From Rhodothermus profundi (GTDB lineage Bacteria; Bacteroidota; Rhodothermia; Rhodothermales; Rhodothermaceae): a stretch of 64,000 nt of DNA. A program made the position numbers and the translations under genes. Below, in pieces: positions 25,377 through 41,089 of the stretch. The stretch is taken from the NCBI RefSeq assembly GCF_900142415.1, contig NZ_FRAU01000001.1:551246-615245 (forward strand), given 5' to 3'. Every line of letters begins with the position of its first letter. The first letter of the stretch is position 1. The notes under the pieces were generated by a model. The model did not search any database, was not told the DNA's origin, and was given only the letters and a program-made list of their open reading frames with translations.

Positions 25377-26765
25377 TCAATCACGCGGCATGCGCGCCTG
25401 GCGCATCGCTTGCTGACTGAACCGCTCCAACCGTTCTCGAAGCTCCTGGCGGCTGCGTTCCAGCAGGTCGCGCTCCAGCGGCCGCTGGGCCCGCACCGTG
25501 AGCGGATCCAGAATCTTCACCTGCAGCACGATCAGGAGTTCAGTCTGGGTAATGGTGCGCTGCGTGCGGCCGAAGATGTACCGCAGCCCAAAAAACCACC
25601 AAGGTAGGTCCTTCAAAAGCGGAACGCCCTTCCGCGCAATCGACTCGCGCGTTGAGTAAAGTCCGCCAATAATGGTCTGCTCGCCATCCAGCAGAAGCAC
25701 TTGCGTATCGGCAGTGTTTCGGTCAATAATGGGGCCGGCCGGGGAAGGCGTTGCGCTGGAATTTTCGACCAGCACATCCAGATGCACAAATTCGACCAGC
25801 GGGGCGCCCGCCGTGTCGGCTACCGGGGCTACAATAAGGGTAGGTGTAACGTCGATAATGATACCGGTTGACACAAACTGGGTAATGGTATTGCCGGCAA
25901 AGTCCCGGGTCTGGATCGGAACGTCTGAGCCAATCTGGATGCGCCCCTGCTCTCCACTTTGCACCGTGATCTGCGGACTGGCAATTGTCTCGCCGATTCC
26001 TTCTGTCTCCAGAAAGCGGAAGAAATTGGTCAGTTGCCGAAAGTTGATACGCTCGGGCGCTTCAATAAGGGGCTGGAGTGGATCAAACAGCTTATCGGTT
26101 TTCAGATAGAACTGCACATTATCCTGGCCGGCCACACCTCCTGCTGCTCCCCCACCTCCTACTCCGCCGGCACCGCCTCCCTGGCCCGCACCGACATTGA
26201 GCCCAAAGAATTGATCCCAGTTAATGCCGATATCTCGCGCTTTGGTCAGGTTCACGCTGAACAGAATGGCATTGATCTGGATCTCTCTTGTTTCAAGCGT
26301 AGCGGGTTGAACCAGTTCGGGCTGGGGAGCCGCTTCAGCCCGCCGAGGCCCGATAATCACCTCTGGCTTTTCAGGAGCCTGTTCGACAATGAAAAACTTT
26401 TCGGTTTCCCGATAGGTCAGGCCTTTTGTCTGAAGCACCAGCTCAAAAGCGTCGAAAAAGTGCATGCTTGAGATAGAAATTCCGATAGGCTCGGTGCGTT
26501 CTTCAGGATCGATAATCTGCTTGCCCGTCACCCGCTGAAAGATTGGATTGAGCAGCTCAAAAAACTGATTGAGCGGTGTGGTGGGCAAAAACGACACCAG
26601 TTGATCAGGGGGCACGTAGGTGCGCATCACCCGTTGCGGTGGGCGATCCTGCGACAGACCGGGCCAGGTCAGCAGTCCACCAATCAGTAGCAAACCAAGT
26701 GCTGTCGCGATCCAGGTTCTCGTCTGCACGTGCTCCATGGCAACTCTTTTCGGGTTAGCTTCCAT
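25377..26765 (-). CDS. pilQ: Type IV pilus secretin (PilQ/GspD family)
   Basis: Outer-membrane secretin through which the pilus passes. The 462 residues have a hydrophobic export signal (about 19-35), an N0/STN-like domain (about 60-130, ISISSMHFFDAFELVLQTKG), a Gly-rich insertion (192-213) and a C-terminal secretin domain. The signature VPLLKDLPWWFFGLRYIFG (381-399) and the end TELLIVLQVKIL are present. It is short for PilQ, with no AMIN domains. The first ATG follows directly on the stop of the PilO-PilP gene; an ATG at 26738 (MEHVQTR) is an alternative that fits the signal peptide better. It is the last gene before a terminator. Confidence 0.92.
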   Translation of the reverse strand: MEANPKRVAMEHVQTRTWIATALGLLLIGGLLTWPGLSQDRPPQRVMRTYVPPDQLVSFLPTTPLNQFFELLNPIFQRVTGKQIIDPEERTEPIGISISSMHFFDAFELVLQTKGLTYRETEKFFIVEQAPEKPEVIIGPRRAEAAPQPELVQPATLETREIQINAILFSVNLTKARDIGINWDQFFGLNVGAGQGGGAGGVGGGGAAGGVAGQDNVQFYLKTDKLFDPLQPLIEAPERINFRQLTNFFRFLETEGIGETIASPQITVQSGEQGRIQIGSDVPIQTRDFAGNTITQFVSTGIIIDVTPTLIVAPVADTAGAPLVEFVHLDVLVENSSATPSPAGPIIDRNTADTQVLLLDGEQTIIGGLYSTRESIARKGVPLLKDLPWWFFGLRYIFGRTQRTITQTELLIVLQVKILDPLTVRAQRPLERDLLERSRQELRERLERFSQQAMRQARMPRD

Positions 26766-27722
26766 TTACTGGTTTAAGGGCATCAGCAAGACGGGGCCCA
26801 GTGCCTGCCGGTAGCGTTCACCGGTTTCCAGGTGCAAGACCACTTCGTCTAGAATGCCCCCACGATTCAGCCGGGCCACCACTCGGCCTTCCACCGGATC
26901 AATTTCCGTAATCTGTCCCAGGTACACGGCGTCCCCGACCTTTACCGTGCGCAGCCCGGAAGCGTCCTGAAAGACGGCACGGTCCCCTACGATAGAGACC
27001 AGCGTAGCCTGCTCGATGTCTACCAGGTTGTCGGTGTTTGGCGGAAGCTGCTCCAGGATGCCCGGATAGAAGGGATTAACCGGTGGATTTTTTTCTGGAA
27101 AGACAGCACGGGGCAGTTGCCGGTACAAACTGTCAGCCAGGTGCGCTACCTGCAGATCGGGCAATCCACCATAGTAGGCTTCCAGTAGCATATTGAACGA
27201 GACCATGATCATCATGCGTTCTTTACCGCTGACGCGGTCGGCCTTGACCAGGTCGATGTGGTCCAGCGAAAGATGGCGGATTCGGTAAAGCTCGGGGCTG
27301 TTTTCAATTTCCCAGACAAAGCGATACAGGTGATGAAAATAGCCTCGGCCTTCAATGCGGAAGGTGTAGTAATTGACATTCTGCGTTTGTCCGCTTCCTA
27401 TGAATTGCACATTGAAGGTTTCAAAGCCGCGTCGCGACAGTTCGTTCAGGCGCGCCACGACGTCGGGCGTACTCAACGATGCCGGGATGTATCGATAGCG
27501 CGAGCGCCACCGGCTTTCGACTTCCCGCGCGCGCTCTTCAGAGGCGCTGTACTCAGCCAGTAATGATCCCATTTCAGTTTCGCGCATATGCGCCAGCTTT
27601 TCCAGCTTTTCGTAGTGTTCAATCGCCCTAGGCAGCTTGAAATAGGTCAGGTAAATGCCCACGCCGGTCAGTATCAACCAGCCTACAAACAGCAGCAGCG
27701 CGTTGCCGTACTTCTTCCACAT
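26766..27722 (-). CDS. PilO-PilP fusion, inner-membrane alignment protein
   Basis: A 318-residue protein with one N-terminal transmembrane helix (about 7-27, ALLLFVGWLILTGVGIYLTY), a coiled-coil stretch (about 35-70), then a PilO-like ferredoxin-type domain (about 80-200; YYTFRIEGRGYFHHLYRFVW). The C-terminal part (about 235-312; LVSIVGDRAVFQDASGLRTV, VKVGDAVYLGQITEIDP) resembles the beta domain of PilP/GspC homology regions that contacts the secretin. In most bacteria PilO and PilP are separate and PilP is a lipoprotein. It lies between the PilM-PilN fusion (6 nt) and the secretin (0 nt). The PilP part is recognised by pattern only. Confidence 0.78.
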   Translation of the reverse strand: MWKKYGNALLLFVGWLILTGVGIYLTYFKLPRAIEHYEKLEKLAHMRETEMGSLLAEYSASEERAREVESRWRSRYRYIPASLSTPDVVARLNELSRRGFETFNVQFIGSGQTQNVNYYTFRIEGRGYFHHLYRFVWEIENSPELYRIRHLSLDHIDLVKADRVSGKERMMIMVSFNMLLEAYYGGLPDLQVAHLADSLYRQLPRAVFPEKNPPVNPFYPGILEQLPPNTDNLVDIEQATLVSIVGDRAVFQDASGLRTVKVGDAVYLGQITEIDPVEGRVVARLNRGGILDEVVLHLETGERYRQALGPVLLMPLNQ

Positions 27723-27728
27723 AGTTGC

Positions 27729-29459
27729 TTATGGATTCGAGGGTTTGGACTGTACAGGCTGAGCATTGACGGCAAACTGCTCGCGCAGGTAGCGTGCAGG
27801 CTCGGGCAGGTCGTTGGGCAGCGGGATTTCGATTACAAAGGCATACACCGGCCACCCGCGAATTTCTGAGAAGGTGAGCGCGCGGATGATGCCGTTCATA
27901 CGCTGAGCCAGCTCCACAACGCGGTCGCGAGCGATGGCGCTGCCCTTTAATTCGACCCCATCGGTACGCGGGCGCCAACTGTCAACCCAGATGCCGCGGA
28001 CCATTGCGACCTCACGCGAGAGTTGCGCCAGCGCCCGGCTCCAGCGGTCGCTTCCTACCAGCAACGAGTCAAGCACGTCGAGCGCCCGGAGTGCCTGCTG
28101 CGTGCGTGCATTCAGACTGTCGATGCGGGCCTGGAGCGCCCGTGCGTCGGTTTCGGCAATAGCCGGGGGAAGCCTGCGCAGGCGTTCCTGGCGTTCGTTC
28201 AGCTCGGCCTCCAGCGTCAGATAACGCCATACAAAAAAGAGCGTGGTAACAAAAAGCAGCGCATAGAGCGCCCACACCTGCCAGCCAAACGGCAACTCCC
28301 AGCGCCGTCGCAGGCTGGATGGAAAGAGGTTAACAGGTTCGAAGGCCTTCAAAAACTCCGGATCCCCCACCAGACGCAGGGCAGCTAACTGCGCTGCCAG
28401 CGATCCCGGCCCCACTTCCTGATCGTCCAGCGGCAGATATCGCCGTAGGTTTTCAATGCGGGCGTTGGGAAAAAAGACCTCCAGACTTCGCTGGATTTCG
28501 GTCTCGCCGTGCTCGCCCACCAGGAAGACGTGCGACACTTCCCCGATGCCGTATTCATCTTGCAACAGCAGAATGCGGCTGCAGATCGTCTCGGGCGTGT
28601 CGTGCATAGTCAGCGAGCGAAGACTTTCGGCGTGCTGGAGCGTCTCCCCTTGTATGAAGAGCACCAGCGTGTCGTCGGCGCCTACGCGCAGCACCAGCGA
28701 GCGCGTTTCCGGCGATTCGGGAGCTATCTGGCGCAGCGCCGTCCGAACCAGTCCCAGGTATAGCGACACTTCGGTCTCAAACAGCCGCGTACGTGGCAAC
28801 CGGCGATTCGACTCGGCCTTGAGCGCCTGCAGCGTAGCCGTTACCGGCTCGCTGGGACGTGGATAAATGGCCAAAAATCGATGCGTCTCTTCATCAGAAG
28901 GCGTCATGGCCAGGAAGGCCACCTGCTCTTCCTCAAGTGGCGTTCCCACCTGCTGCTCCAGTAGCTCCAGCAGCGCCTTGCGATCAACCGGACCGGTCTC
29001 CTGATCTTTGGTTGCCAGGCGGCGGGGCAATCGCAACTCAACGTAGGACAGATCCACAGAAGGCAGGCAGAAGGCCACCTCGGGATCGCCATAGCCCGCT
29101 TCCCGGCATTCAGCCAGGATGTCGGAAAGCTCCATCACAAAGATGGCGGCCGGCGGTCCCTGTTCGCTGCCTGCTCCATCGCCACTTAGATCAAATTCGG
29201 ACTTTAAAAATGGCGTTGCAGTCCCACTTCCACCGAACTGAATCGAAAAGTCGCCTCCCGTCTCCTGGCCTTTGACTTCCGGCACGCCCTGTTGCACACT
29301 GGCAAAACGGGTTACGCGCTGTCGCGTAAATCGCCGCACGACTTCCAGCCCTTCTGCCTCGCGCTTTAGCAGCACGGCATAGACGGTCCGTCCTGCTATC
29401 GTAACGCCCAGCACGTAAGGGACCTTGGCACGCGTGACCTTCTGTTGCTTCGACTTCAT
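27729..29459 (-). CDS. PilM-PilN fusion, pilus inner-membrane platform
   Basis: A 576-residue protein. The N-terminal approximately 370 residues have an actin-like PilM pattern (YVLGVTIAGRTVYAVLLKRE, then LRVGADDTLVLFIQGETLQH and HVFLVGEHGE). Next come a PilN-type motif FEPVNLFPSSLRRRW, one transmembrane helix (about 397-417, VWALYALLFVTTLFFVWRYL), a coiled coil and a ferredoxin-like periplasmic domain. In standard systems PilM is cytoplasmic and binds the short N-terminal INLLP peptide of PilN. Here that interaction is replaced by a covalent link. It follows PilT by about 50 nt and precedes PilO-PilP by 6 nt. Confidence 0.82.
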   Translation of the reverse strand: MKSKQQKVTRAKVPYVLGVTIAGRTVYAVLLKREAEGLEVVRRFTRQRVTRFASVQQGVPEVKGQETGGDFSIQFGGSGTATPFLKSEFDLSGDGAGSEQGPPAAIFVMELSDILAECREAGYGDPEVAFCLPSVDLSYVELRLPRRLATKDQETGPVDRKALLELLEQQVGTPLEEEQVAFLAMTPSDEETHRFLAIYPRPSEPVTATLQALKAESNRRLPRTRLFETEVSLYLGLVRTALRQIAPESPETRSLVLRVGADDTLVLFIQGETLQHAESLRSLTMHDTPETICSRILLLQDEYGIGEVSHVFLVGEHGETEIQRSLEVFFPNARIENLRRYLPLDDQEVGPGSLAAQLAALRLVGDPEFLKAFEPVNLFPSSLRRRWELPFGWQVWALYALLFVTTLFFVWRYLTLEAELNERQERLRRLPPAIAETDARALQARIDSLNARTQQALRALDVLDSLLVGSDRWSRALAQLSREVAMVRGIWVDSWRPRTDGVELKGSAIARDRVVELAQRMNGIIRALTFSEIRGWPVYAFVIEIPLPNDLPEPARYLREQFAVNAQPVQSKPSNP

Positions 29460-29509: not shown

Positions 29510-30808
29510 TTACTGGAGCAATTGCTGAAGGCGCCGCTTATTATTGGCGAAATCAAAGGCCACTTCCGGCGTAATCAAATGCTGCCGGACCAGTCGGTAC
29601 AAATCCTGTTCCAGGGTGGTCATGCCCAGTGCTCCGCCTTCCCACATCATCTGGTAGATTTCGCCGATATTCTTGTTTTTGATGGCCGCCCGTGCTGAGG
29701 GCGTCATCCAGAGCACTTCCTTGGCCAGAATGCGCCCTCCCCCGATCTTAGGCACCAGCTTCTGCGAGATCACGCAGCGCAGCACATCAGCCAGCCGATT
29801 TCGCACGCGGTCCTGCTCATCGGGCGGATATTCAGCTACGATGCGGTCGATTGTCTCTACGGCCGAGCTGGTGTGCAGGGTGGAAAAGACTTTGTGTCCC
29901 GAGTCGGTAATCTCCAGGGCCGCCGAGATGGTCTCGGGATCTCGCATCTCCCCGATCACGATAATGTCAGGGTCCTGGCGAAGGGCCTGCACAATCCCCT
30001 CCTTAAAGGTGCGCACGTCACGTCCAACTTCGCGATGGCGAATCAGGCATTTGCGCGAACGGTGCACATATTCTATAGGCCGTGCGATAATGACCACGTG
30101 CGCATAAACGTCGTCGTTGTTCGCGTCAATGATGGCATCAAGCGTGGTGCTCTTACCGGAGCCTGTAACCCCCGTCACCAGCGTGAGGCCATCCCGCACG
30201 TGCCGAAACATGAGGCCGCGCTCAATCAGCGGATGGAAGCCCAGGCTTTTGAGCGGACGAATTTCGTCGCTAATGGCGCGCATGTTCAGCGCCACATGGT
30301 CCATATCGAAGTAGACGGTGGCGCGGAACCGCCGGGGCATGCCATTGCGGCCCTCAACAGGCAGCTCATACGAAAAGTCAAGCGCACACTCTTCGAAAAA
30401 GAGCTGGAGCTGCCGTTCAGTAAGCAGATTCAGAATAAGCAGCGCGGCCTCATCACATGAGTAGGTGCCCATTTCCTGGTAGGGCCGCTTGTCGCCATGC
30501 ACGCGGTACCAGACGTATCCATTGGCAGCGGGCCCTCCCATATCCAGGTCGCTGGCATTGAGCTCCAGCATGCGCTTCACCAGCAACTGCATGTGCTCGC
30601 GCAGCAGCGTGCGGTCTTTATCCAGCAGTGCGTTGACCTGCTCGGCCAGATAGCGCGCGCGGTCCTGGCCCACAAGCGAAGGCGGCACCGCATCCAGAAG
30701 CGTCTTGCAGATCTTGGGCAAAGGCGGTACGGGCCGCACGCGCGGTCGCTGCGACGCAGAAGCATGCTGCGCCAGCACTTCGGCCAGCGCGGGATTGGGG
30801 TTCGACAT
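29510..30808 (-). CDS. pilT: PilT-family retraction ATPase with altered Asp box
   Basis: A 432-residue secretion ATPase of the PilT/PilU type. It has an N-terminal PAS-like domain, Walker A GVTGSGKST (213-221), Walker B DIIVIGEMRDPE (281-292) and the His-box STLHTSSAVETIDRI. The C-terminal VISQKLVPK and ALGMTTLEQDLYRLV also fit PilT. The usual acidic motif EDPIE is ARPIE here (242-246), removing two conserved acids. The N-terminus carries about 45 extra residues. It is the first gene of the PilT-PilMN-PilOP-PilQ unit and follows the terminator of the pilin unit. It should power retraction or DNA uptake, if the variant is active. Confidence 0.88.
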   Translation of the reverse strand: MSNPNPALAEVLAQHASASQRPRVRPVPPLPKICKTLLDAVPPSLVGQDRARYLAEQVNALLDKDRTLLREHMQLLVKRMLELNASDLDMGGPAANGYVWYRVHGDKRPYQEMGTYSCDEAALLILNLLTERQLQLFFEECALDFSYELPVEGRNGMPRRFRATVYFDMDHVALNMRAISDEIRPLKSLGFHPLIERGLMFRHVRDGLTLVTGVTGSGKSTTLDAIIDANNDDVYAHVVIIARPIEYVHRSRKCLIRHREVGRDVRTFKEGIVQALRQDPDIIVIGEMRDPETISAALEITDSGHKVFSTLHTSSAVETIDRIVAEYPPDEQDRVRNRLADVLRCVISQKLVPKIGGGRILAKEVLWMTPSARAAIKNKNIGEIYQMMWEGGALGMTTLEQDLYRLVRQHLITPEVAFDFANNKRRLQQLLQ

Positions 30809-30952: not shown

Positions 30953-32089
30953 TCAGGAAGCCGGAACCGGGATGAATTCGATTTCAATCACCTGGTCACT
31001 GAAGTCCGGCATGTGCCCGAAATCGAGCAACTTGTAGTAGCCGCGGCTGTCGGTTTCGCGCCATCCCCATCCACCATAGCTGCGCTTTCCGTTACGCTCT
31101 CCCCACTGAGGGCCTCGGCGTCGTCTCCAGCGCCGATCTCCATATCCCCACCGCTTGACATCTTCCAGCTTGGCCCGCGGGAAGATGAGGTCCTCAAAGG
31201 CAATGCGCCAGACGTTAGGACGGGTCGGATGCGCCTGAATCATAGCGTACATGCCCTCCTGCATCTGGCTAAAATCACCCACACTCTCCAGCAGCGCAGG
31301 CCGCGTGTATTCATAGAAGGGATCATTGATATCAATACTGGTGTCGCCGCGCCGCTCGCAGTTGAAGTCGGCATCGACGGCCAGAATGAAATTCACCCGC
31401 TCACCCGGATTCAACACCGTCGAATACAGCGCCTCCGCTCCATCCCGATTGTTCCCCGGCGCAAACACCAACTCAGGCTCCAGGGCAATGTATCGGCCGT
31501 TACCGTTACCGCGCAGCTCCACGTCGCGCTGATTGCTGCACGATCCGCCCAGCGCCGGATTGCTGGGATCACATCCTCCCAGATTGTTGCCCATTCCATT
31601 GTTGTTCCTGGGCACGAAGCGTTGGAGATAGATGGCCGAGCAATACCCCGCCATCGACTCTAGAAACGTCACCTTCACCTGACTCGGCTGATCCACCTCC
31701 AACACCCCCCGCATCACCCGATGCGAACCAATCCGATGCTCCGCCTCCCCATACCGACCGATCGCCACCGCCCCATAGGACGAAGCCCCCAGCGGATAAA
31801 CCCAGGCCTCGTAGCTGCCTCCCTGAAGCTGACCCGTCAGCTTCCCGGCGCTGCCGTTGACCGCCGAAACCAGTTGCTCCAGGCTCCAGTCGGGGTTGGC
31901 CGATTCCAGGCGCCGGGCCCGTGAAATAATCCGGTTGTAGGCTGAACGGGCAATTTCGCGGGCCAGTGCCTCCTCCTGACGCTCCGCCTGTCGCTCATCC
32001 GACTCCAAACGCATTGAGCTGCTCTGCAACAGCAGAATGCTACCCCCAATAACTGCTGCTACAGCCAGTAGAATAGCGATCTTTCCCAT
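30953..32089 (-). CDS. Pilin-like membrane-anchored protein (378 aa), unknown family
   Basis: The N-terminus MGKIAILLAVAAVIGGSILL forms a hydrophobic helix right after a Met-Gly leader and continues into a charged helix (RLESDERQAERQEEALAREI), the shape of a type IV pilin stalk, but without a Glu at position 5. The C-terminal 300 residues are Gly/Asn/Tyr-rich, with scattered Cys pairs (GCDPSNPALGGSC) that could form disulfides. I do not recognise the globular part. It is the last gene of the pilin unit before the terminator, and its size suits a large tip or minor pilin of the PilX/PilY1-priming kind. Function is inferred from position and helix only. Confidence 0.68.
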   Translation of the reverse strand: MGKIAILLAVAAVIGGSILLLQSSSMRLESDERQAERQEEALAREIARSAYNRIISRARRLESANPDWSLEQLVSAVNGSAGKLTGQLQGGSYEAWVYPLGASSYGAVAIGRYGEAEHRIGSHRVMRGVLEVDQPSQVKVTFLESMAGYCSAIYLQRFVPRNNNGMGNNLGGCDPSNPALGGSCSNQRDVELRGNGNGRYIALEPELVFAPGNNRDGAEALYSTVLNPGERVNFILAVDADFNCERRGDTSIDINDPFYEYTRPALLESVGDFSQMQEGMYAMIQAHPTRPNVWRIAFEDLIFPRAKLEDVKRWGYGDRRWRRRRGPQWGERNGKRSYGGWGWRETDSRGYYKLLDFGHMPDFSDQVIEIEFIPVPAS

Positions 32090-32129: not shown

Positions 32130-32765
32130 TTACGAGTTGCTATCTATCCTGCGAACCAGCAGGGTTGACCCATAGTAGACCTGTCGTAGCACCTGAGAAC
32201 GGGCCACTTCAAATGGCGTGACCATGGTAAACCGAACACGGGTATTTTGCATCTGGTCTTTTTGCGCCACCGGATCGCTCAGAGGCTTTGCATCCCGGTC
32301 CAGCAAATCGATCCTGAAATAGCTCAGCAGGGCCGGACTGCTACCACTGTATTGCCAGCTTCCACTTCCAACCCGCTCCTCACGCAGAAGCCGGTACACT
32401 GCTATCGAATCACCCTGAAGGGCTCGCTTCCCTACCGAAATCAGACGATAGCGTACGTACAGGCGAATGGTTGAGCCATCGCTGGCAATCGAGTCGCGGA
32501 AAAATACGAACTGGGTCGTTACGCCTGTTGCGTTATCATATACGGGATTCTCATAGGGCGCCTCTGAGGCAAAGTCAACATTTTCGCCCATCCGCAGCAA
32601 GTCATCTTCCAGCCAGGTAGCCAGATCATTGGCCTGACGCTTGATGATATAGTTCACCGATTGCTCCAGGTTGATCTCGGCTACTCGCTGCTGGACTCCC
32701 AGCAGCATCAAAAACAGCACGCCACCTACAATCAGGGCGTTGAGATTGTCAAAAATGACCCACAT
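32130..32765 (-). CDS. Pilin-like membrane-anchored protein (211 aa), unknown family
   Basis: A 211-residue protein with a short polar start (MWVIFDNLN), a hydrophobic helix (about 10-24, ALIVGGVLFLMLLGV), then a long charged amphipathic helix. After residue 60 it has a beta-rich part with few cysteines. The shape matches a minor pilin of the PilW/GspJ kind, but the usual GFTLIE cleavage motif is absent. It lies 40 nt upstream of the 378-residue gene and 16 nt downstream of the 182-residue one. Function is unknown; a role as a minor subunit is an inference. Confidence 0.65.
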   Translation of the reverse strand: MWVIFDNLNALIVGGVLFLMLLGVQQRVAEINLEQSVNYIIKRQANDLATWLEDDLLRMGENVDFASEAPYENPVYDNATGVTTQFVFFRDSIASDGSTIRLYVRYRLISVGKRALQGDSIAVYRLLREERVGSGSWQYSGSSPALLSYFRIDLLDRDAKPLSDPVAQKDQMQNTRVRFTMVTPFEVARSQVLRQVYYGSTLLVRRIDSNS

Positions 32766-32781
32766 GGCCGCATTTCACCCT

Positions 32782-33330
32782 TCAATAGCCGTAGGCAAAA
32801 ACACGCTGCAGTCGAATGGGCACCGATAGAAAAGGATCTAGCGTGTTTCTCCAGTCATCCTGCACCGCAATGGTTACCCGCTTGAAAGCCGTTGGAGAGG
32901 TCGCTCTGACTGCCTCGCCCAGCGCGTTGTAATCCACGTACTCGACGGTAATGCCCACATTGAACCACACCGTATCCTGCCCCATTACAAAGGGACGCAG
33001 CACGCGCTGGTTATGAAAGTCGTCGATATCGTCACAGGTAGCCGTTCCGCCAAAAGCCTGGCAATGCAGATTAGAGGGCGTCCCGAAGTCTGTCGTGTCC
33101 GAAAACAACGTCAGGTCGTTCACCGTCCCATTGGTCAATCCATCCACCACGGCCTGGTCGAAGGCCCGCGTGCGGATAATCTCCATGGTCTCTATCGCCA
33201 CCGATTGCGCCATTTCTTCGATTTCGCGCTTAAGCGTGGCCCGCTGAAAGGCGACGTACCACTGATTGACCGATACGGCGAAGTTGACGGCCAAGATCAT
33301 GGCCAGCAACGCAAACAATGACTGGGCCAT
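32782..33330 (-). CDS. Pilin-like membrane-anchored protein (182 aa), unknown family
   Basis: A 182-residue protein beginning MAQSLFALLAMILAVNFAVS: a Met-Ala-Gln start directly followed by a hydrophobic helix, then a charged amphipathic helix (LKREIEEMAQSVAIETMEII). The same start pattern is seen in the main pilin (MGQQQLLLLVLG). The rest is beta-rich, with two Cys around 92 and 98 (NLHCQAFGGTATCDD). No Glu5 is present. It follows PilB by about 120 nt and is the first of three such genes. It is probably a minor pilin or pseudopilin; this is inferred from shape and context. Confidence 0.67.
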   Translation of the reverse strand: MAQSLFALLAMILAVNFAVSVNQWYVAFQRATLKREIEEMAQSVAIETMEIIRTRAFDQAVVDGLTNGTVNDLTLFSDTTDFGTPSNLHCQAFGGTATCDDIDDFHNQRVLRPFVMGQDTVWFNVGITVEYVDYNALGEAVRATSPTAFKRVTIAVQDDWRNTLDPFLSVPIRLQRVFAYGY

Positions 33331-33450: not shown

Positions 33451-36400
33451 TCACTCGTCTGTGGTCGTCACCCGCACCATTTCTTCGACCGTAGTCTCAC
33501 CGGCCAGCACTACCTCACGGGCAGCGTCTCGCAGCGTCTGCATGCCCTCTTTGATGGCCTGCTCCCGGAGCGCATCCTCGTCAATAGATCCCTGGGCCTC
33601 GACGATCATGTGCCGGATCGTCCGCGAGAAATACATGGCCTCGACGATCGCCCGCCGGCCCTTGTAGCCAACCCCCTTGCACACTTTGCAGCTCCGATCT
33701 CGGCCTGCCTTGTAGAAGGTAGTGCGGGCAATCTCTTCGTCTGTGAAGCCCAGCTTACGCAGCATTACGTAGTCAGGATCCTTGTCTTCTACTTTGCAGG
33801 CCGGACAGACTTTTCGGATCAGGCGCTGCGCCACCACCAGGTTAATCGCATAGGCAATCAAAAACGGCTCAATCCCCATCTTGTAGAGCCGGCTCACCGC
33901 ACTGGGCGCATCGTTCGTGTGCAGCGTCGAAAACGTCAAATGCCCCGTGTTGGCCAGCTTGATGGCCAGCTCGGCCGTCTGCCGGTCGCGCATCTCGCCT
34001 ACCATGACAATGTCGGGGTCGTGCCGCAAAATGGCGCGCAGCGCATCCTCCAGCCCCAGCTTATGATTGAGCTTAATCTGGCGCACGCCCGGGATGATGT
34101 ATTCGACCGGATCTTCAATAGTCAGCACGTTCACTTCCGGGCTGACGACCTGGTGGAGGGCGGCGTAGAGGGTGGTGCTTTTACCGCTGCCGGTAGGACC
34201 GGTAACGATCACCATGCCGTGAGGCTGCCGAATAGCCCGCTCAAAACGCTCCAGCGCCTTCTTGCTAAGCCCCAGCAGACGCAGGTCTTTGATAACCCGG
34301 CGATCGTCCAGCACGCGAATAACGATCGACTCAGAGCGCAGGTCTTCCAGCGCGTTGGCAATAGGCAGTACGGAGACGCGGAAGCGGATCAGGTGGTCGT
34401 CGATCCAGCGCTGAATAAAACCATCCTGCGCCGCTTCGCGCTCAAAGCGATCCACATTCATCGACTGGTCTTTGATCACCGCGATGAATGCTTCCGGGTG
34501 CACCTTGTCTTCGACGTGCCAGCGCGTGAGCCGTCCATCAATTCGGAAATGAATTTCTACCTTTTTCTGGTTGTTCGGGAAGATGTGGATGTCTGAGGCG
34601 CCCTGGCGGACGGCTTCGACCAGCGTTGCTTCAAAGAGATTGATAAGCTTGGAGCGGTTGATCTCGGCTTCCAGGGCGTCTTCATCGATCAGCTCTGTTT
34701 CGGTGTCGTAGCTGGTCCCCAGGTCATACGCAGCTTCTTCTTGCACACGCTCCAGGTATTCGTTCCGCCGCGGATAGGCTTCCATCAGCGCCTGCATAAT
34801 CACCCCCCGGGGCGCGTACTGGAGCTCAAACCGCTCTAGCTTGAGCCGGTGCACCAGCCGATGCACTTCAGGCCGCATGGGGTCGTGCGTAACCAGCACG
34901 AGCTTGACGGCACCGGTCTGGGCGTCCAGATCTACCTCAAAGGGCACAACCCCCAGCTCGATCAGGCGCTCCCGCACCTCTTCTTCGAAGGTATCCATCA
35001 CCGAACGCACAAACTCTGGACTGGGCTTACCCGGCTCCAATTTGGCAATGGGGAATGCGTACAGCCGCGCCGCCTCTTCATAAATGGAGTCCTGAGGCAC
35101 ATGATCACTTTGCGCCAGCACACGCCAGAGTGGTTCCCTGAGCTTTTCATCCTGCTGCCGTTGATAGGCCTGATAGACCTGATGCAGCGCCACCACCTCT
35201 TTTTCCAGCAGTCGGCTCACGACACGATCCCGACTAATGGCCTCCTTGAGTTCCGGCAGATCATCCAGTACGATTTTAACAGGCGGCGGCACGTCTTCTT
35301 CCTCGTCGTCCGCAGAGGACGTATCAAGCGACTGCTCTTCGTCCCCAGCCGCATCGGACGCCACCTCTAACGTCTCCACCTCCACCTCAGGCGTTGATTC
35401 GAGAACAGCTTCAGCCTGGGCTTCCGCCGCAGGCTCTGCTGCAGGCGTGTCGATCAGCTCGTCCGGTGCCGATACGGCAGGAGGGTCGCCAACAGGCGCA
35501 GACTCCGAGGCCGGATCTACCAGCACTTCTCCGACAGGCTCCTCTTCAGGCACTCCAGACGTTACGGTGGCCGCTACCTCCTCATCGATTCCTCCTGTAT
35601 CCTCTTCCCGCCCGCTTTCTGGCAATGCTTCAAGCGCCGAAGGCGCAGGCCGGGCGTCGGCTTCAGTCGCCTCCTCATCGGGTAAGCTGCCCGACACCTC
35701 CACTACCTCGGGTTCTGACGGAGCTGCGGATGGCACTGCCTCTTCCCCCTGCGTCGCTTCCTCAGTTTCCGGCATCGATGCCTCCGGCGAAGCCGGTGGA
35801 GCTTCGGGCGACGCCGGGGTCAGTAAGGGCGGTCGGAAATTTTCCAGTTCAGCCAACCGTTGCTGCAGAATACGCTCCGGCGCGTACCGTAGCTCGGCCG
35901 GCAATCCTAATTGCTGGATAACGGTCTCTAGCTCGGGACGCGTTGGATCGTGCGTGGCCAGCAGCAAGACGCGGTCCCCGCCCTTCTTACCCTGAGCAAA
36001 TGCACAGGGTAACAGTTGCCACTCAAACAGGGCATGCTGCACTGCAGGCGGCAGCAGCAACAAAATGGCCTTAATGAACTCCACCGACGGACGCGTCTCG
36101 TCCACGGGCGCCGGTTCAACTCCGCCGACACGGGCGGCTTCCGCCAGCACGGTTTCCCGATCAACGCCCGGCACTTCCAGCAAGCAGCGCCAGAGCGTTT
36201 GATCCGGGCATCGACGGCGCAGCACGATAGCCCGGGCAATTTGATCCAGCCGCACGGCTCCCCCATAGAGCAGCGCCATGACCACCTCATCTTCGAACAT
36301 TTCTGCCAGCTCAGGCATGAGTGCTCCTGGGGGTAAGGAAGCCGTTCGCGCATCACGGGCTGCTGCTCCGTTGCTTTGCTGGTCAGCTTTCGCGCCAGGT

Positions 36401-36936
36401 TCTCCAGCGTGCTTTTGAGGCGGCGGGGACGTTCTCCCCGGGACGTTCTCGCCGCCCGCGGCCGCACTAGACAGGCTGGCCTGCATGCGAGCAGGCGGTG
36501 GCTCTTTGCCAGCAGCAACATCCGACCGATTTTTCAACCGGCGCTCATCTGGCAGCGCATCAGCGGGTGGCTCTTTGCCAGCAACCTCTAACAGAGCATC
36601 CGTCAGATCCGAGGATGCTGTATGAGCAGCGTCTACCTCTATCCTGTCTGGCTCCTGCGACGCAGGCGGCGGTTCTGGAGGACGTTCAGAATGTCCGTCG
36701 CCGGCCATTTCCAACCATGCCTGCGTCGGACGCCGATTCTCCTGATGCCCGGATGCTGCTTGCGGTGCAGATTCCGGTTGCCGCTCCTCTGGCGCCTTCC
36801 CTCCAGATGCTTGCCCGGCGGCATCGGGCGATTGTTGCATGGAAGCCGACGCGTTATCCCCGAACTTCAGCCGCCGCAGCTCTTCGTTCCACTCACGATG
36901 CGAACGGCGGCGCCCGAACAGACCACTCCAGCTCAT
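33451..36936 (-). CDS. pilB: Type IV pilus assembly ATPase PilB with duplicated N-terminal domain
   Basis: An 1161-residue extension ATPase, about twice the usual PilB length. Residues 1-200 are low complexity. An MshEN/GspE-N-like domain (about 203-365; LLLATHDPTRPELETVIQQL) is followed by an acidic Pro/Ala/Glu linker (about 370-555) and a second copy of the domain (about 558-720; LVLVTHDPMRPEVHRLVHRL). The catalytic core has SDIHI (781-785), Walker A GPTGSGKST (913-921), Walker B DIVMVGEMRD (975-984), His box STLHTND and a zinc motif with Cys 1044, 1047, 1083 and 1086. In several species MshEN domains bind c-di-GMP. It follows PilC by about 70 nt. Confidence 0.93.
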   Translation of the reverse strand: MSWSGLFGRRRSHREWNEELRRLKFGDNASASMQQSPDAAGQASGGKAPEERQPESAPQAASGHQENRRPTQAWLEMAGDGHSERPPEPPPASQEPDRIEVDAAHTASSDLTDALLEVAGKEPPADALPDERRLKNRSDVAAGKEPPPARMQASLSSAAAGGENVPGRTSPPPQKHAGEPGAKADQQSNGAAARDARTASLPPGALMPELAEMFEDEVVMALLYGGAVRLDQIARAIVLRRRCPDQTLWRCLLEVPGVDRETVLAEAARVGGVEPAPVDETRPSVEFIKAILLLLPPAVQHALFEWQLLPCAFAQGKKGGDRVLLLATHDPTRPELETVIQQLGLPAELRYAPERILQQRLAELENFRPPLLTPASPEAPPASPEASMPETEEATQGEEAVPSAAPSEPEVVEVSGSLPDEEATEADARPAPSALEALPESGREEDTGGIDEEVAATVTSGVPEEEPVGEVLVDPASESAPVGDPPAVSAPDELIDTPAAEPAAEAQAEAVLESTPEVEVETLEVASDAAGDEEQSLDTSSADDEEEDVPPPVKIVLDDLPELKEAISRDRVVSRLLEKEVVALHQVYQAYQRQQDEKLREPLWRVLAQSDHVPQDSIYEEAARLYAFPIAKLEPGKPSPEFVRSVMDTFEEEVRERLIELGVVPFEVDLDAQTGAVKLVLVTHDPMRPEVHRLVHRLKLERFELQYAPRGVIMQALMEAYPRRNEYLERVQEEAAYDLGTSYDTETELIDEDALEAEINRSKLINLFEATLVEAVRQGASDIHIFPNNQKKVEIHFRIDGRLTRWHVEDKVHPEAFIAVIKDQSMNVDRFEREAAQDGFIQRWIDDHLIRFRVSVLPIANALEDLRSESIVIRVLDDRRVIKDLRLLGLSKKALERFERAIRQPHGMVIVTGPTGSGKSTTLYAALHQVVSPEVNVLTIEDPVEYIIPGVRQIKLNHKLGLEDALRAILRHDPDIVMVGEMRDRQTAELAIKLANTGHLTFSTLHTNDAPSAVSRLYKMGIEPFLIAYAINLVVAQRLIRKVCPACKVEDKDPDYVMLRKLGFTDEEIARTTFYKAGRDRSCKVCKGVGYKGRRAIVEAMYFSRTIRHMIVEAQGSIDEDALREQAIKEGMQTLRDAAREVVLAGETTVEEMVRVTTTDE
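36497..36583. repeat. 18-bp direct repeat inside pilB
   Basis: GGTGGCTCTTTGCCAGCA occurs at 36497-36514 and 36566-36583, 69 nt (23 codons) apart and in the same frame. It encodes the repeated peptide AGKEPP in the low-complexity N-terminal region of PilB. Recombination between the copies would delete 23 residues in frame. Confidence 0.7.
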
Positions 36937-37005: not shown

Positions 37006-38367
37006 CTACCGCCCCATCCGCATCAGGTCGGTGGTAGAGGGTTGCACCAGGGCTACCTCGGAGGAAATAATGGTCAGCACGGCAATGGCGATCGTAATCA
37101 AAATGGCGATGACTGTCTGGATTCCTTCCACCACCGCCTTCAGCTTTAGCGTTGTCTCGCTTTCGTAGTAGTTGGCCATCTGCTCGGCCGCTCCTCGCAC
37201 GTTCCCCGTCTCCGAACCACTCCGAAAACGTGCCAGTGCCATCTGAGTAAAGACCCCACTGGCTTCCATGGCCCGCACCAGATCCATCCCCTGCGCTACC
37301 ATCAAGGGAATCGTAATGGTCTTGATCCGGTGCTCCATGTAGCGGTTACCACAGGCTTCCGCGGCAATTTTGATCACACTGATATTTTCCCCGCTGTTGG
37401 AATACAGAATGGCAAAGACCCGGCAGAAAATTTCAATGTTGAGCTTGTGCAACAGTCCACCAATGATGGGCAGCTTGATCAGCCAGCGATGCACAACCAG
37501 TTGCCCCTTCTCGGAGCGAGCAAACGCCACAAAAGCGCCTACCGCCGCCGCAAATCCCAGCGTCAGCCACAAAATGTTGCGATCAAGCCACTCTGAAAAC
37601 TTCATGGTTGCGGCCGTCATGGGCGGCAGTTCCATGCCCAGATCGGCCAGGAGCCCGGCTGTCATCGGGAAGATGTACCACACGTACCAGATAAACGTGG
37701 CCACCAGCGCGACGATCGTAATGGCCGGCGTGATCATCGCGCTGCGGACGCTTTTGCGAAACTCGTTCTGCCGCTCCAGGAACCGGGCCGTGGACTCAAA
37801 AATCTCGGCCATGTTACCACTTTTGGAGGCCAGGCCGAGCATGTAGGCTGTAAACTTACCCAGAATGTGCTGATGCTTCATGAACGCCTGCTGCGCTTCC
37901 ATGCCGGCCTTCAGGTCGGCGTTCAAATCCCGAATGACCTGGCGCAGCGAGCTGGAAGAGATGTCGTTAACCAGCAGGTTCAGCACTTCGTCGAAAGGCA
38001 ACTTCTCGCGCAGCAGATTGGCTGCCAGCCGCACGAACATAATGATGTCGGTCCGGGGGGGCTTCAACTGGAGGTCGAGCAGCTTCCGCTCAATGCGGAT
38101 CACCTCCAGCCCCATCTTGCGCAGGGCCTGTGCCAGCTCTTCGGCCGTGTACGCCTTTTGCTCACCGGTGATGACCCGGCCGCTTGGATGCCGCACCTTG
38201 TAAAGGAACGTGCGGCGCGGCTGCAACATCTGCGGCCGGAAGCCGTGTTTCTTGGCCAGTTCGGCGAGTTTCTTACGGGCTGCCCGCATCGAAGGGGCCA
38301 GCACCGTCCCCTGCACAGGAACCCCGCTCAGACTGATCCCACTGAAGCGAAACTCACGAACAGGCAT
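37006..38367 (-). CDS. pilC: Type IV pilus platform protein PilC (GspF family)
   Basis: A 453-residue inner-membrane platform protein from the ATG at 38367 (MPVREFRFSGISLSGVPVQG). A longer frame to 38433 exists, but its extra 22 codons lie inside the hairpin region after the pilin gene, so I reject it. After a PilC-type N-terminal ARNK-like region come two GspF domains (about 150-270 and 340-450). Membrane helices include ITIVALVATFIWYVWYIF and LWLTLGFAAAVGAFVAF, and the sequence ends in a helix (TVIAILITIAIAVLTIISSE). The second-domain signature AMEASGVFTQMALARFRSGS is clear. It lies between pilin and pilB, consistent with one operon. Confidence 0.92.
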   Translation of the reverse strand: MPVREFRFSGISLSGVPVQGTVLAPSMRAARKKLAELAKKHGFRPQMLQPRRTFLYKVRHPSGRVITGEQKAYTAEELAQALRKMGLEVIRIERKLLDLQLKPPRTDIIMFVRLAANLLREKLPFDEVLNLLVNDISSSSLRQVIRDLNADLKAGMEAQQAFMKHQHILGKFTAYMLGLASKSGNMAEIFESTARFLERQNEFRKSVRSAMITPAITIVALVATFIWYVWYIFPMTAGLLADLGMELPPMTAATMKFSEWLDRNILWLTLGFAAAVGAFVAFARSEKGQLVVHRWLIKLPIIGGLLHKLNIEIFCRVFAILYSNSGENISVIKIAAEACGNRYMEHRIKTITIPLMVAQGMDLVRAMEASGVFTQMALARFRSGSETGNVRGAAEQMANYYESETTLKLKAVVEGIQTVIAILITIAIAVLTIISSEVALVQPSTTDLMRMGR

Positions 38368-38395
38368 AGGAAGCTGCCGCCAATCCTTATGAAGG

Positions 38396-38460
38396 GAAGA
38401 AAAGGAGGCCGGTGGCGCCCCGCCGGGGCGCACTCCCCCGCACAGAACGCCACCGGACCT
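38396..38460 (-). terminator. Attenuator-like hairpin between pilin and pilC
   Basis: On the minus strand the pilin stop is followed by a long GC-rich hairpin. The outer arms are AGGTCCGGTGGCG and CGCCACCGGCCT (38406-38417 and 38449-38460 on the plus strand), and the inner stem is GCGCCCC-GCC-GGGGCGC. A pyrimidine-rich tract with interrupted U residues comes after it. It lacks a clean U run, so it probably works as a partial terminator or an RNA-stability element that raises pilin over PilC output. Confidence 0.55.
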
Positions 38461-38495: not shown

Positions 38496-38972
38496 TCAAC
38501 CGCCGCCGCCGTTGTTATTATTGTTGCCTGTGGTGTAGCTCCACGTAATGTCGTCCGGCGTGGTACCGTCAATCGTGACCGTGGCAATGGTCGTATTCGC
38601 GTCACAAACGCGGTTGCCGTTCTGATCGGTCGTCAGCCCATAGATGGTCAGCGTGGCAGCTGAACTATTACCGCTGAGCGCATAGCAACCATTCACCGTC
38701 AGGTAACGGCCATTAGCATCCAGGCTGGACGAGGGAATGCCAATCGCCTGGAAGCTGACGCTCGTCCAATTACCACTGTCGCCTCCTCCACCAAACGCTT
38801 TGGGCTTAAGCATCCAGGCCTGGATGTCGGAAATCAGCCGCATCGCATCGCTGACCGCTGCATCCCGGTCGGCCTTGGCCTTACCTTCGGAGAAGGCCTG
38901 AATACCGGCGACCACGGCAATTCCGACGATCACCATGCCGAGCACGAGGAGCAGAAGCTGTTGCTGACCCAT
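38496..38972 (-). CDS. Major pilin-like protein without Glu5
   Basis: A 158-residue protein. The N-terminus MGQQQLLLLVLGMVIVGIAV has a possible two-residue leader ending in Gly, then a hydrophobic helix that runs into a charged helix (FSEGKAKADRDAAVSDAM), as in type IV pilins. There is no F1 and no Glu5 of the classic G/FTLIE site. The globular part is Ser/Thr/Asn-rich, with one Cys pair (96 and 123) suited to a disulfide loop, and ends in five Asn and four Gly. GGAGG lies 8 nt upstream of the ATG. It is the first gene of the pilin unit, with a sigma-54-like promoter and a structured leader, as expected of a highly expressed main subunit. The identity as major pilin is inferred. Confidence 0.8.
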   Translation of the reverse strand: MGQQQLLLLVLGMVIVGIAVVAGIQAFSEGKAKADRDAAVSDAMRLISDIQAWMLKPKAFGGGGDSGNWTSVSFQAIGIPSSSLDANGRYLTVNGCYALSGNSSAATLTIYGLTTDQNGNRVCDANTTIATVTIDGTTPDDITWSYTTGNNNNNGGGG

Positions 38973-39031
38973 GACGAGCCTCCTGTTTGGTTAATGAATG
39001 TTTCGCTTTTCGTTAGAGGACAGGCTTCTGA

Positions 39032-39524: not shown

Positions 39525-40763
39525 TCAATTACTGTTCAGTCCGGCACAGGCTTCGACTTCTTTAGCTTTTTCCATCTGGTCGGTCTGCACATACGCCTGG
39601 AAGAGGGCGCGGCAAATAGGCTGAACGTTTTCTCCCTGCGCTTCCATGAGCTCGCGCGCCCGTTCCAGCGGCGGAATCGCCTGCGCAAAGAGCTGTCGGC
39701 GTTCTTCAATCAATTGCGCTATCTGTTCTTCGAGCTGGCGAATTTGATCACGGGAGAGCTCCGAGCGATGCGCGCGCAGGCTGTCGTCCAGCGCCACAGC
39801 TCTGTCGTTCACATCAACCGCCTTGTTAATATAGGTGGCGCCCAGATTGTAGAAGGCGTTTGCATATTCCGGATCCAGCTCGGTTGCCTTCTTTAGATGC
39901 GTGATCGCTTCATCGTAGCGACCGGCTTCCAGCAACAGCGAGCCGTAGTTGTATTGGTAAAGTTTGTTGTCAGGCTCTTTCTCTACCGCCTCTTTATACA
40001 TATTCATTGCTTCCTCTAGCTTGCCGGCCTGCACATAGGCATTCAGCAACTGCGACTCAATATCCGGATCGTCTGGATAGCGCTGGCGTGCCTTTTCCAG
40101 GATTTCCAGCGCCTTTTCCGGCTGCTGCTGAATCCGATACAGGTCGGCCAGAATCAGATAGGTATCTTTGGAAGCTTCGCCTTTCGAGATAGCCGTTTCC
40201 AGAGGGGGAATGGCTTCCGCCCGCTTGCCCGCATTCAGCAGAGAAAAGGCCTGGTTCACATAGGCCCCGGCCGAATCGGGCTGGATAATGGTAGCCCCTT
40301 CAAAATAGGCGGCTGCCCATAGATAGTAGGTTGAATCCTCACTGCCTCGGTTGAAAGCATTAATACCGTTCTGGAACTCTCGAACGTAGGCAAAGCGGAG
40401 CTGGTTGACAATACCTTCTTCTAATTTGGGATCCAGTTCTATGGCCTTCTGAAAGGCCGCCACCATCGCCCGCACCGTATCCAGGCGTGCTTCAGGCTCC
40501 AGGTCCTGCTGGTTGGCCAGAATGTCCAGAATTATCCGGCCTTTGAGTTCATAGGCCTCGGGGTTCTGCGGATTGCGCTCCAGTGCTTTTTCGACGTTCT
40601 CTAGAGCCCGAGCATAGTCCTTATTGCGCAGGTCCAGTTTGGCCCCTTCAATGTTAGGATCTCCTGAGCAGCCATTGGCACCGGCCAGCACCAGCACCCA
40701 CCCGCTTATCAGCAGCATGCCCAGCGAGCGCTTCCAGGCAGCAAAACAGTGTAGCGCGTTCAT
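39525..40763 (-). CDS. Tetratricopeptide repeat protein, probable lipoprotein
   Basis: A 412-residue exported TPR protein. I place the start at ATG 40763 (MNALHCFAAWKRSLGMLLIS), with GAGGG 6 nt upstream. The longer frame to 41027 adds 88 residues that resemble no signal or domain. The hydrophobic signal ends in AGANGC, a weak lipobox. About eight TPR units follow (for example YARALENVEKALERNPQNPE, AYELKGRIILD, and YANAFYNLGATYINKAVDVN), then a charged coiled coil (DQIRQLEEQIAQLIEERRQL). TPR proteins scaffold complexes, often at the outer membrane; it could serve the nearby pilus as a PilF/PilW-like pilotin, but the gap of 550 nt and its own terminator leave that open. Confidence 0.82.
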   Translation of the reverse strand: MNALHCFAAWKRSLGMLLISGWVLVLAGANGCSGDPNIEGAKLDLRNKDYARALENVEKALERNPQNPEAYELKGRIILDILANQQDLEPEARLDTVRAMVAAFQKAIELDPKLEEGIVNQLRFAYVREFQNGINAFNRGSEDSTYYLWAAAYFEGATIIQPDSAGAYVNQAFSLLNAGKRAEAIPPLETAISKGEASKDTYLILADLYRIQQQPEKALEILEKARQRYPDDPDIESQLLNAYVQAGKLEEAMNMYKEAVEKEPDNKLYQYNYGSLLLEAGRYDEAITHLKKATELDPEYANAFYNLGATYINKAVDVNDRAVALDDSLRAHRSELSRDQIRQLEEQIAQLIEERRQLFAQAIPPLERARELMEAQGENVQPICRALFQAYVQTDQMEKAKEVEACAGLNSN

Positions 40764-41089
40764 GTTGCCCTCGGCTTTGCAGTTAACAGAAATCACCTCA
40801 ATGCCTTTAACGGCTATTTCTTTCCTGAAGGAAATTAACGACTGAATGCGCCCGGCACAACCGGTTGACTGGATTCTTTCATTTTTGAAAGCAAAACGAC
40901 AGGGTTTCCCGCCAAAACGTCTGAGCGCCTCGGACACCTGTCGTGCTACGTCACTGCATTTTTTCTCATGTTGTTTGTCGTTTTTTCGGCGGCATGTGCC
41001 AATCTGGCGCACTTTCACCAGCGGCATAGCTGTTGATAAAAAGTGGGGTGGAATCCTGAGAAAACAACCATCAAACGGAGGAGAGAGCC
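40764..41089. other. Divergent intergenic region, TPR gene / hsp20
   Basis: A 326-nt region between the divergent TPR and hsp20 start codons. One frame on the minus strand is open across it but shows no coding features and no plausible ribosome site. I see no CIRCE element. GGAGGAGAG before the hsp20 ATG is a strong ribosome binding site. Promoters for both genes must lie here, but none is clear enough to mark. Confidence 0.5.

Follow-up and report, generated by a model that had tools for sequence, protein, structure and literature searches.

A type IV pilus-like operon of Rhodothermus profundi and its relatives, with leaderless pilins and, in most genomes, no detectable prepilin peptidase

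How could a pilin be built into a type IV pilus if it carries no leader to be removed and its genome appears to hold no enzyme that could remove one? Type IV pilins are defined in reviews by a class III signal peptide (PMC10191384, PMC4471445), and a 2023 review places the pilin, the prepilin peptidase, the extension ATPase and the platform protein in every type 4 filament system (PMC10191384). In a survey, Nanoarchaeota was the only phylum with prepilins in which the peptidase was not found (PMC4471445). The question is raised by a 64-kb stretch of the Rhodothermus profundi genome (64,000 nucleotides; hereafter the window), in which pilA heads an operon encoded on one strand, in the order pilA, pilC, pilB, three minor pilins, pilT, pilMN, pilO and pilQ (Table 1). 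We suggest that the locus encodes a retractable type IV pilus like those of the T4aP class, and that its subunits may be made without a cleavable leader.

Table 1. Position in the window, strand and assignment of the features at the pilus locus
Feature	Position	Strand	Evidence or remark
In-frame TAA	38991..38993	(-)	six codons 5' of the pilA ATG; no start codon between
Shine-Dalgarno of pilA, AGGAGG	38979..38984	(-)	six bases 5' of the ATG
pilA, major pilin, 158 aa	38496..38972	(-)	starts MGQQQLLLLVLG, leaderless, without Glu5
pilC, inner-membrane platform protein	37006..38433	(-)	T2SSF E 3.3e-28, two copies
pilB, extension ATPase	33451..36936	(-)	T2SSE E 1.7e-103
Minor pilin candidate m1	32782..33330	(-)	MAQSLFALLAM..., leaderless
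Minor pilin m2	32130..32765	(-)	MWVIFDNLNAL..., predicted GspJ/PilW-like fold
Minor pilin candidate m3	30953..32089	(-)	MGKIAILLAV..., larger subunit, no acidic residue near start
pilT, retraction ATPase	29510..30808	(-)	TIGR01420 E 5.2e-95, 318.6 bits against a cut-off of 319.1
pilM-pilN-like fusion	27729..29459	(-)	PilN part resembles Myxococcus PilN (3jc8, E 4e-7); PilM by position only
pilO-like	26766..27722	(-)	by position and architecture only
pilQ, short secretin	25377..26765	(-)	Secretin E 1.4e-28; best NCBIfam match PilQ, below cut-off

The major pilin and its start

The original prediction held that the major pilin lacks Glu5, and this is borne out. The N-terminal stretch of the pilA translation reads MGQQQLLLLVLGMVIVGIAVVAGIQAF, and there is no Asp or Glu at residues 2-28, so Glu5 is absent whether the numbering begins at Met1, Gly2 or Gln3. 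The accompanying proposal of a two-residue leader cut at G^Q fared less well, since no prepilin peptidase that could make the cut was detected in the genome or the genus; the MG of the major pilin is probably not a leader. The disulfide pair that had been noted is present as Cys96 and Cys123, but it is limited to Rhodothermus-like members.

A mis-set start codon, concealing a longer protein with a GFTLIE site, had been named as a way in which this picture could be wrong. The pilA ATG is secure, being preceded by AGGAGG and, upstream of that, by an in-frame TAA; with no start codon between the TAA and the ATG, a longer leader with GFTLIE is excluded. We therefore give almost no credence to the idea that a normal class III leader is hidden by a longer start or a sequencing error. 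The strong ribosome site also speaks against it, as does the position of the upstream stop in relatives, which lies zero to four codons from the pilin start in 91 of 152 of them (directly before the start codon in one, and with room for a single codon in several others). No canonical leader motif occurs in any frame of the 64-kb window. The in-frame stops here and in relatives refute the mis-set start.

The start is strongly conserved. All fetched loci were scanned with the helix motif of the pilin as the query, the N-terminus being left unused, and 156 distinct pilin-like ORFs were matched. Among these, 152 begin with MGQQQL and three with MG[ST]QQL, and the remaining one is part of a canonical pilin; an acidic residue at positions 2-12 was found in none of the 152. 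Every synonymous codon of Gly (four), Gln (two) and Leu (six) is in use at the invariant sites, and such free codon variation at invariant residues points to selection on the protein. Relatives with the MGQQQL start include Roseithermus, Salinivenus, Balneola, Gracilimonas, Aliifodinibius, Ignavibacteria, Chrysopegis, Melioribacteraceae and KSB1. In several genomes, among them those of loci L112 and L156, the GQQQ pilin is present as two to seven paralogues, of which some lie in tandem, and there is a second class of paralogue whose likeness to the major pilin lies mainly in the first ten or so residues.

Searches of Pfam, NCBIfam and PHROGs assigned no family to the major pilin or the minor subunits (one match, to DUF7263, was sub-threshold at E 0.064), and no solved homologue of the major pilin was significant by sequence. 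Because Pfam and NCBIfam searches miss such pilins, they have been overlooked, as in the genome paper on Melioribacter roseus, which reported pilTQBC and concluded that pilA and pilD were absent (PMC3534657). A phage or plasmid origin was considered and rejected, given that the major pilin is absent from the PLSDB plasmids and that the phage matches of PilC are only distant.

The operon and the predicted folds

The order pilC-pilB-pilT-(pilMN)-pilO-pilQ was recovered in all 20 genomes sampled across the phylum, with pilMN undetected by tblastn in one, and pilA lies inside the fetched stretch in 17 of the 20. In about half of these genomes, small pilin-like ORFs are clustered between pilB and pilT; where this cassette is missing, the minor subunits must be located elsewhere or have gone unrecognised. 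The PilM- and PilN-like parts appear to form one fused protein across the lineage. PilB scores 400 bits with TIGR02538 and 404 bits with TIGR02533, both under the equivalog cut-offs. It is 1161 aa in length, with a long linker rich in Ala and Glu and an N-terminal region that is repeated, such that a single region of one relative aligns to both residues 210-368 and residues 566-707. A 500-aa TPR protein is encoded upstream of pilA on the same strand (39525-41027); in other systems TPR proteins can serve as pilots of the secretin.

Apart from pilC, the 20 sampled operons have no multi-spanning gene in common. In five relatives a protein with seven to nine spans and a Wzy_C (O-antigen-ligase) domain is encoded between pilA and pilC (L035:15935-17446, L037:15243-16796, and also L141, L143 and L144), and one such protein weakly matches TfpM, an O-linking transferase. 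It was considered as a peptidase within the operon and rejected, as it is instead an O-antigen-ligase/TfpM-like glycosyltransferase, and it is probably a pilin glycosylation gene. The 64-kb window itself contains no gene of this kind.

Structure prediction had been proposed as a check for the lollipop fold of pilins, and its outcome favours a type IV pilin-like major subunit. The AlphaFold2 model (pLDDT 79.6, from a 16-sequence alignment) has a helix at residues 3-55 followed by a four-stranded sheet. Foldseek returned no significant match for this model, and in a VIA-align re-alignment the best 13 rows were all type IV pilins, with Z from 7.8 to 4.1. Values of Z below 8 make this a moderate match, yet 13 consecutive rows of one family are telling. 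The first residue of the full-length PAK pilin (1oqw, Z 7.0, 119 residues, 3.5 A) coincides with model residue 4, and that of the gonococcal pilin (5vxx, Z 5.7, 119 residues, 4.0 A) with model residue 2.

The minor subunits had been said to share the same non-canonical start. In all three the membrane helix does come first, with no charged leader ahead of it, but the N-terminal motifs differ (MxQ[ST], MxxxxD and MG[KR]). For m2, Foldseek alone gave no significant match, and structural re-alignment of the model placed nine rows of the GspJ/PilW class at Z 12.5-10.2, with the next row at 5.0. In the alignment with the integrative model 9a1f (Z 10.7, 177 residues, 5.0 A), the first residue of mature XcpW is matched by residue 2 of m2, so Asp6 would occupy the Glu5 position if the leader is Met1 only. 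Asp6 is invariant in eight aligned relatives and missing from two Balneolota-type candidates. Weak profile matches of m3 to viral hemagglutinins were treated as chance.

The prepilin peptidase across the phylum

The genome of R. profundi (3.14 Mb, 99.7% complete) has no match to Peptidase_A24 (PF01478), not even at E<=1, and none at E<=0.1 to a custom profile built from 20 diverse A24 enzymes of Bacteroidota. Neither the A24_N methylase domain (PF06750) nor a canonical N_methyl pilin was found in it. As PF01478, the custom profile and PF06750 all came back empty, a peptidase encoded elsewhere in the genome was rejected. Six congeners, including one on a single contig rated 100% complete and one on two contigs, likewise have no significant A24 match. 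The controls of the A24 search were positive in 12 of 14.

In one fixed set of 296 genomes surveyed for the phylum, the pilin was found in 101, the orthologous PilC in 103 and both in 101. Only 12 of the 103 pilus-bearing genomes have an A24 match over the cut-off; 91 are without one. Each of these 12 has N_methyl pilins and, besides the orthologous PilC, a second and distant one (Fisher p 1e-12 for A24 against the signs of a second system), which suggests that A24 goes with another, canonical system. The GQQQ pilin is leaderless in A24-positive genomes too, in the three that were read. A24 is absent and the system present in Roseithermus sacchariphilus (complete chromosome), Salinivenus iranica, Salinivenus lutea, Aliifodinibius salipaludis and Chrysopegis kryptomonas, while in KSB1 genomes A24 and, in most, a second PilC occur together.

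At least nine survey genomes have canonical N_methyl pilins and no convincing A24, so very divergent A24 enzymes can escape detection. Eight of these nine (all except G217) have a distant PilC as well, and represent either a divergent A24 or another exception. A further 23 survey genomes, mostly of one family (f27), show strong A24 and no detected match to N_methyl pilins or PilC.

Routes to a filament

Our reading, which we consider likely, is that only the initiator Met is left of the leader and that the pilins are synthesised in essentially mature form, so that the prepilin peptidase is not needed. Methionine aminopeptidase removes a Met that precedes Gly. It would take Met1 off the major pilin and expose Gly, leaving G1-QQQLLLLVLG..., and neither a prepilin peptidase nor an N-methylase would be required. 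As in a cleaved pilin, the protein would then open directly with its membrane helix, and PilB and PilC would extract and polymerise the subunit. Without Glu5 and N-methylation, the N-terminal amine would have to be handled differently in the filament core. The GQQQ tip, polar and invariant, would be the most likely means, perhaps through hydrogen bonds or through a chemical block. Candidates m1 (MA, MS) and m3 (MG) would obey the same rule of Met removal; m2 (MW, MH) would not. Methionine aminopeptidase should not process a Met before Trp, so Met may stay on m2.

A different route, to which we assign a minor share of the probability, is that the MG of the major pilin is removed by a peptidase unrecognisable as A24, being very divergent or unrelated, and that the N-terminal Gln becomes pyroglutamate. 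The charge at the N-terminus would be gone and Glu5 unnecessary, as in some archaeal G^Q pilins. Some archaeal pilins do have G^Q cleavage sites, and the G-Q step, invariant in the 152 relatives, resembles them. N-terminal cyclisation is known for a Methanococcus maripaludis pilin (reviewed in PMC4471445), and profiles can miss divergent A24 enzymes. The proposal has to contend with conserved operons that share no candidate multi-spanning gene, with the association of A24, where present, with a second canonical system, and with a leader of M or MG that is far under the known 6-26 residues (PMC4471445). The minor pilins, moreover, lack the G-Q step (MW, MH, MQ, MG[KR]), and one enzyme would need another rule for them.

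It is also conceivable, at a considerably lower probability than cleavage after MG, that no long filament is made, and that the subunits form a short pseudopilus or secretion piston or that the pilin stays bound to the membrane. We found no documented pili and no experimental pilus data for these organisms in the open-licence literature, and the GspE and PilB profiles score the ATPase PilB nearly equally. What counts against a piston is the combination of a PilT-family ATPase, a PilN-like part and a PilQ-like secretin, typical of retractable T4aP, together with the several pilin copies that genomes often carry. The O-antigen-ligase/TfpM-like gene beside pilA in relatives also suggests subunits that are glycosylated and exposed at the surface.

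The system resembles the T4aP of Pseudomonas, Neisseria, Myxococcus and Thermus in its ATPases for extension and retraction, its PilC platform, its PilN-like part and its PilQ-like secretin, and, as predicted here, in its lollipop pilins and GspJ/PilW-like minor pilin. It differs from them in having no leader, no detectable prepilin peptidase or N-methylase and no Glu5 in the major pilin, and also in the apparent fusion of PilM with PilN and the retention of the core genes in one operon. Archaeal type IV pilins and archaellins also often lack Glu5, have G-Q at the start of the helix and are not N-methylated, but they have retained both the leader and a peptidase of the A24 type (PibD/FlaK), whereas the machinery here is of the bacterial T4aP kind. 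MSHA loci likewise have no peptidase gene (PMC6668835); MSHA pilins, however, keep their leaders, and MSHA genomes always have the peptidase of another system to borrow, while 91 of 103 pilus genomes here show no A24 that could be borrowed. The Cytophaga-type T2SS of Bacteroidota belongs to the same superphylum and the T4F superfamily and branches with T4aP (PMC6668835), but its pilins are canonical N_methyl pilins, and when PilC proteins from canonical systems of this sort are compared with the PilC described here, they reach only about 42-103 bits.

The loss of Glu5 alone is unsurprising, because reviews allow exceptions (PMC10191384). That classical pilins with a mutated Glu5 form no homopolymers (reviewed in PMC4471445) counts against our reading. 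The surprise is the missing leader together with the missing peptidase across many relatives. On the genome evidence, two defining features of classical membership, the leader and the peptidase, are lacking in this system. We think it probable that one of the four 'universal' core proteins has been lost from a whole branch of the type IV filament superfamily, which spans Rhodothermota, Balneolota, Ignavibacteriota and neighbouring lineages. In this branch pilins would be born mature, and the peptidase step would have given way to removal of Met or to nothing.

From the perspective of pilus biology, this would be a lineage apparently without the prepilin peptidase, which is counted among the four proteins of every type 4 filament (PMC10191384). 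Such a system bears on the purpose of the leader, on the reason for N-methylation and Glu5, on pilin topology and on how pilins exit from the membrane. A natural peptidase-free system might permit the assembly of pili from fewer parts.
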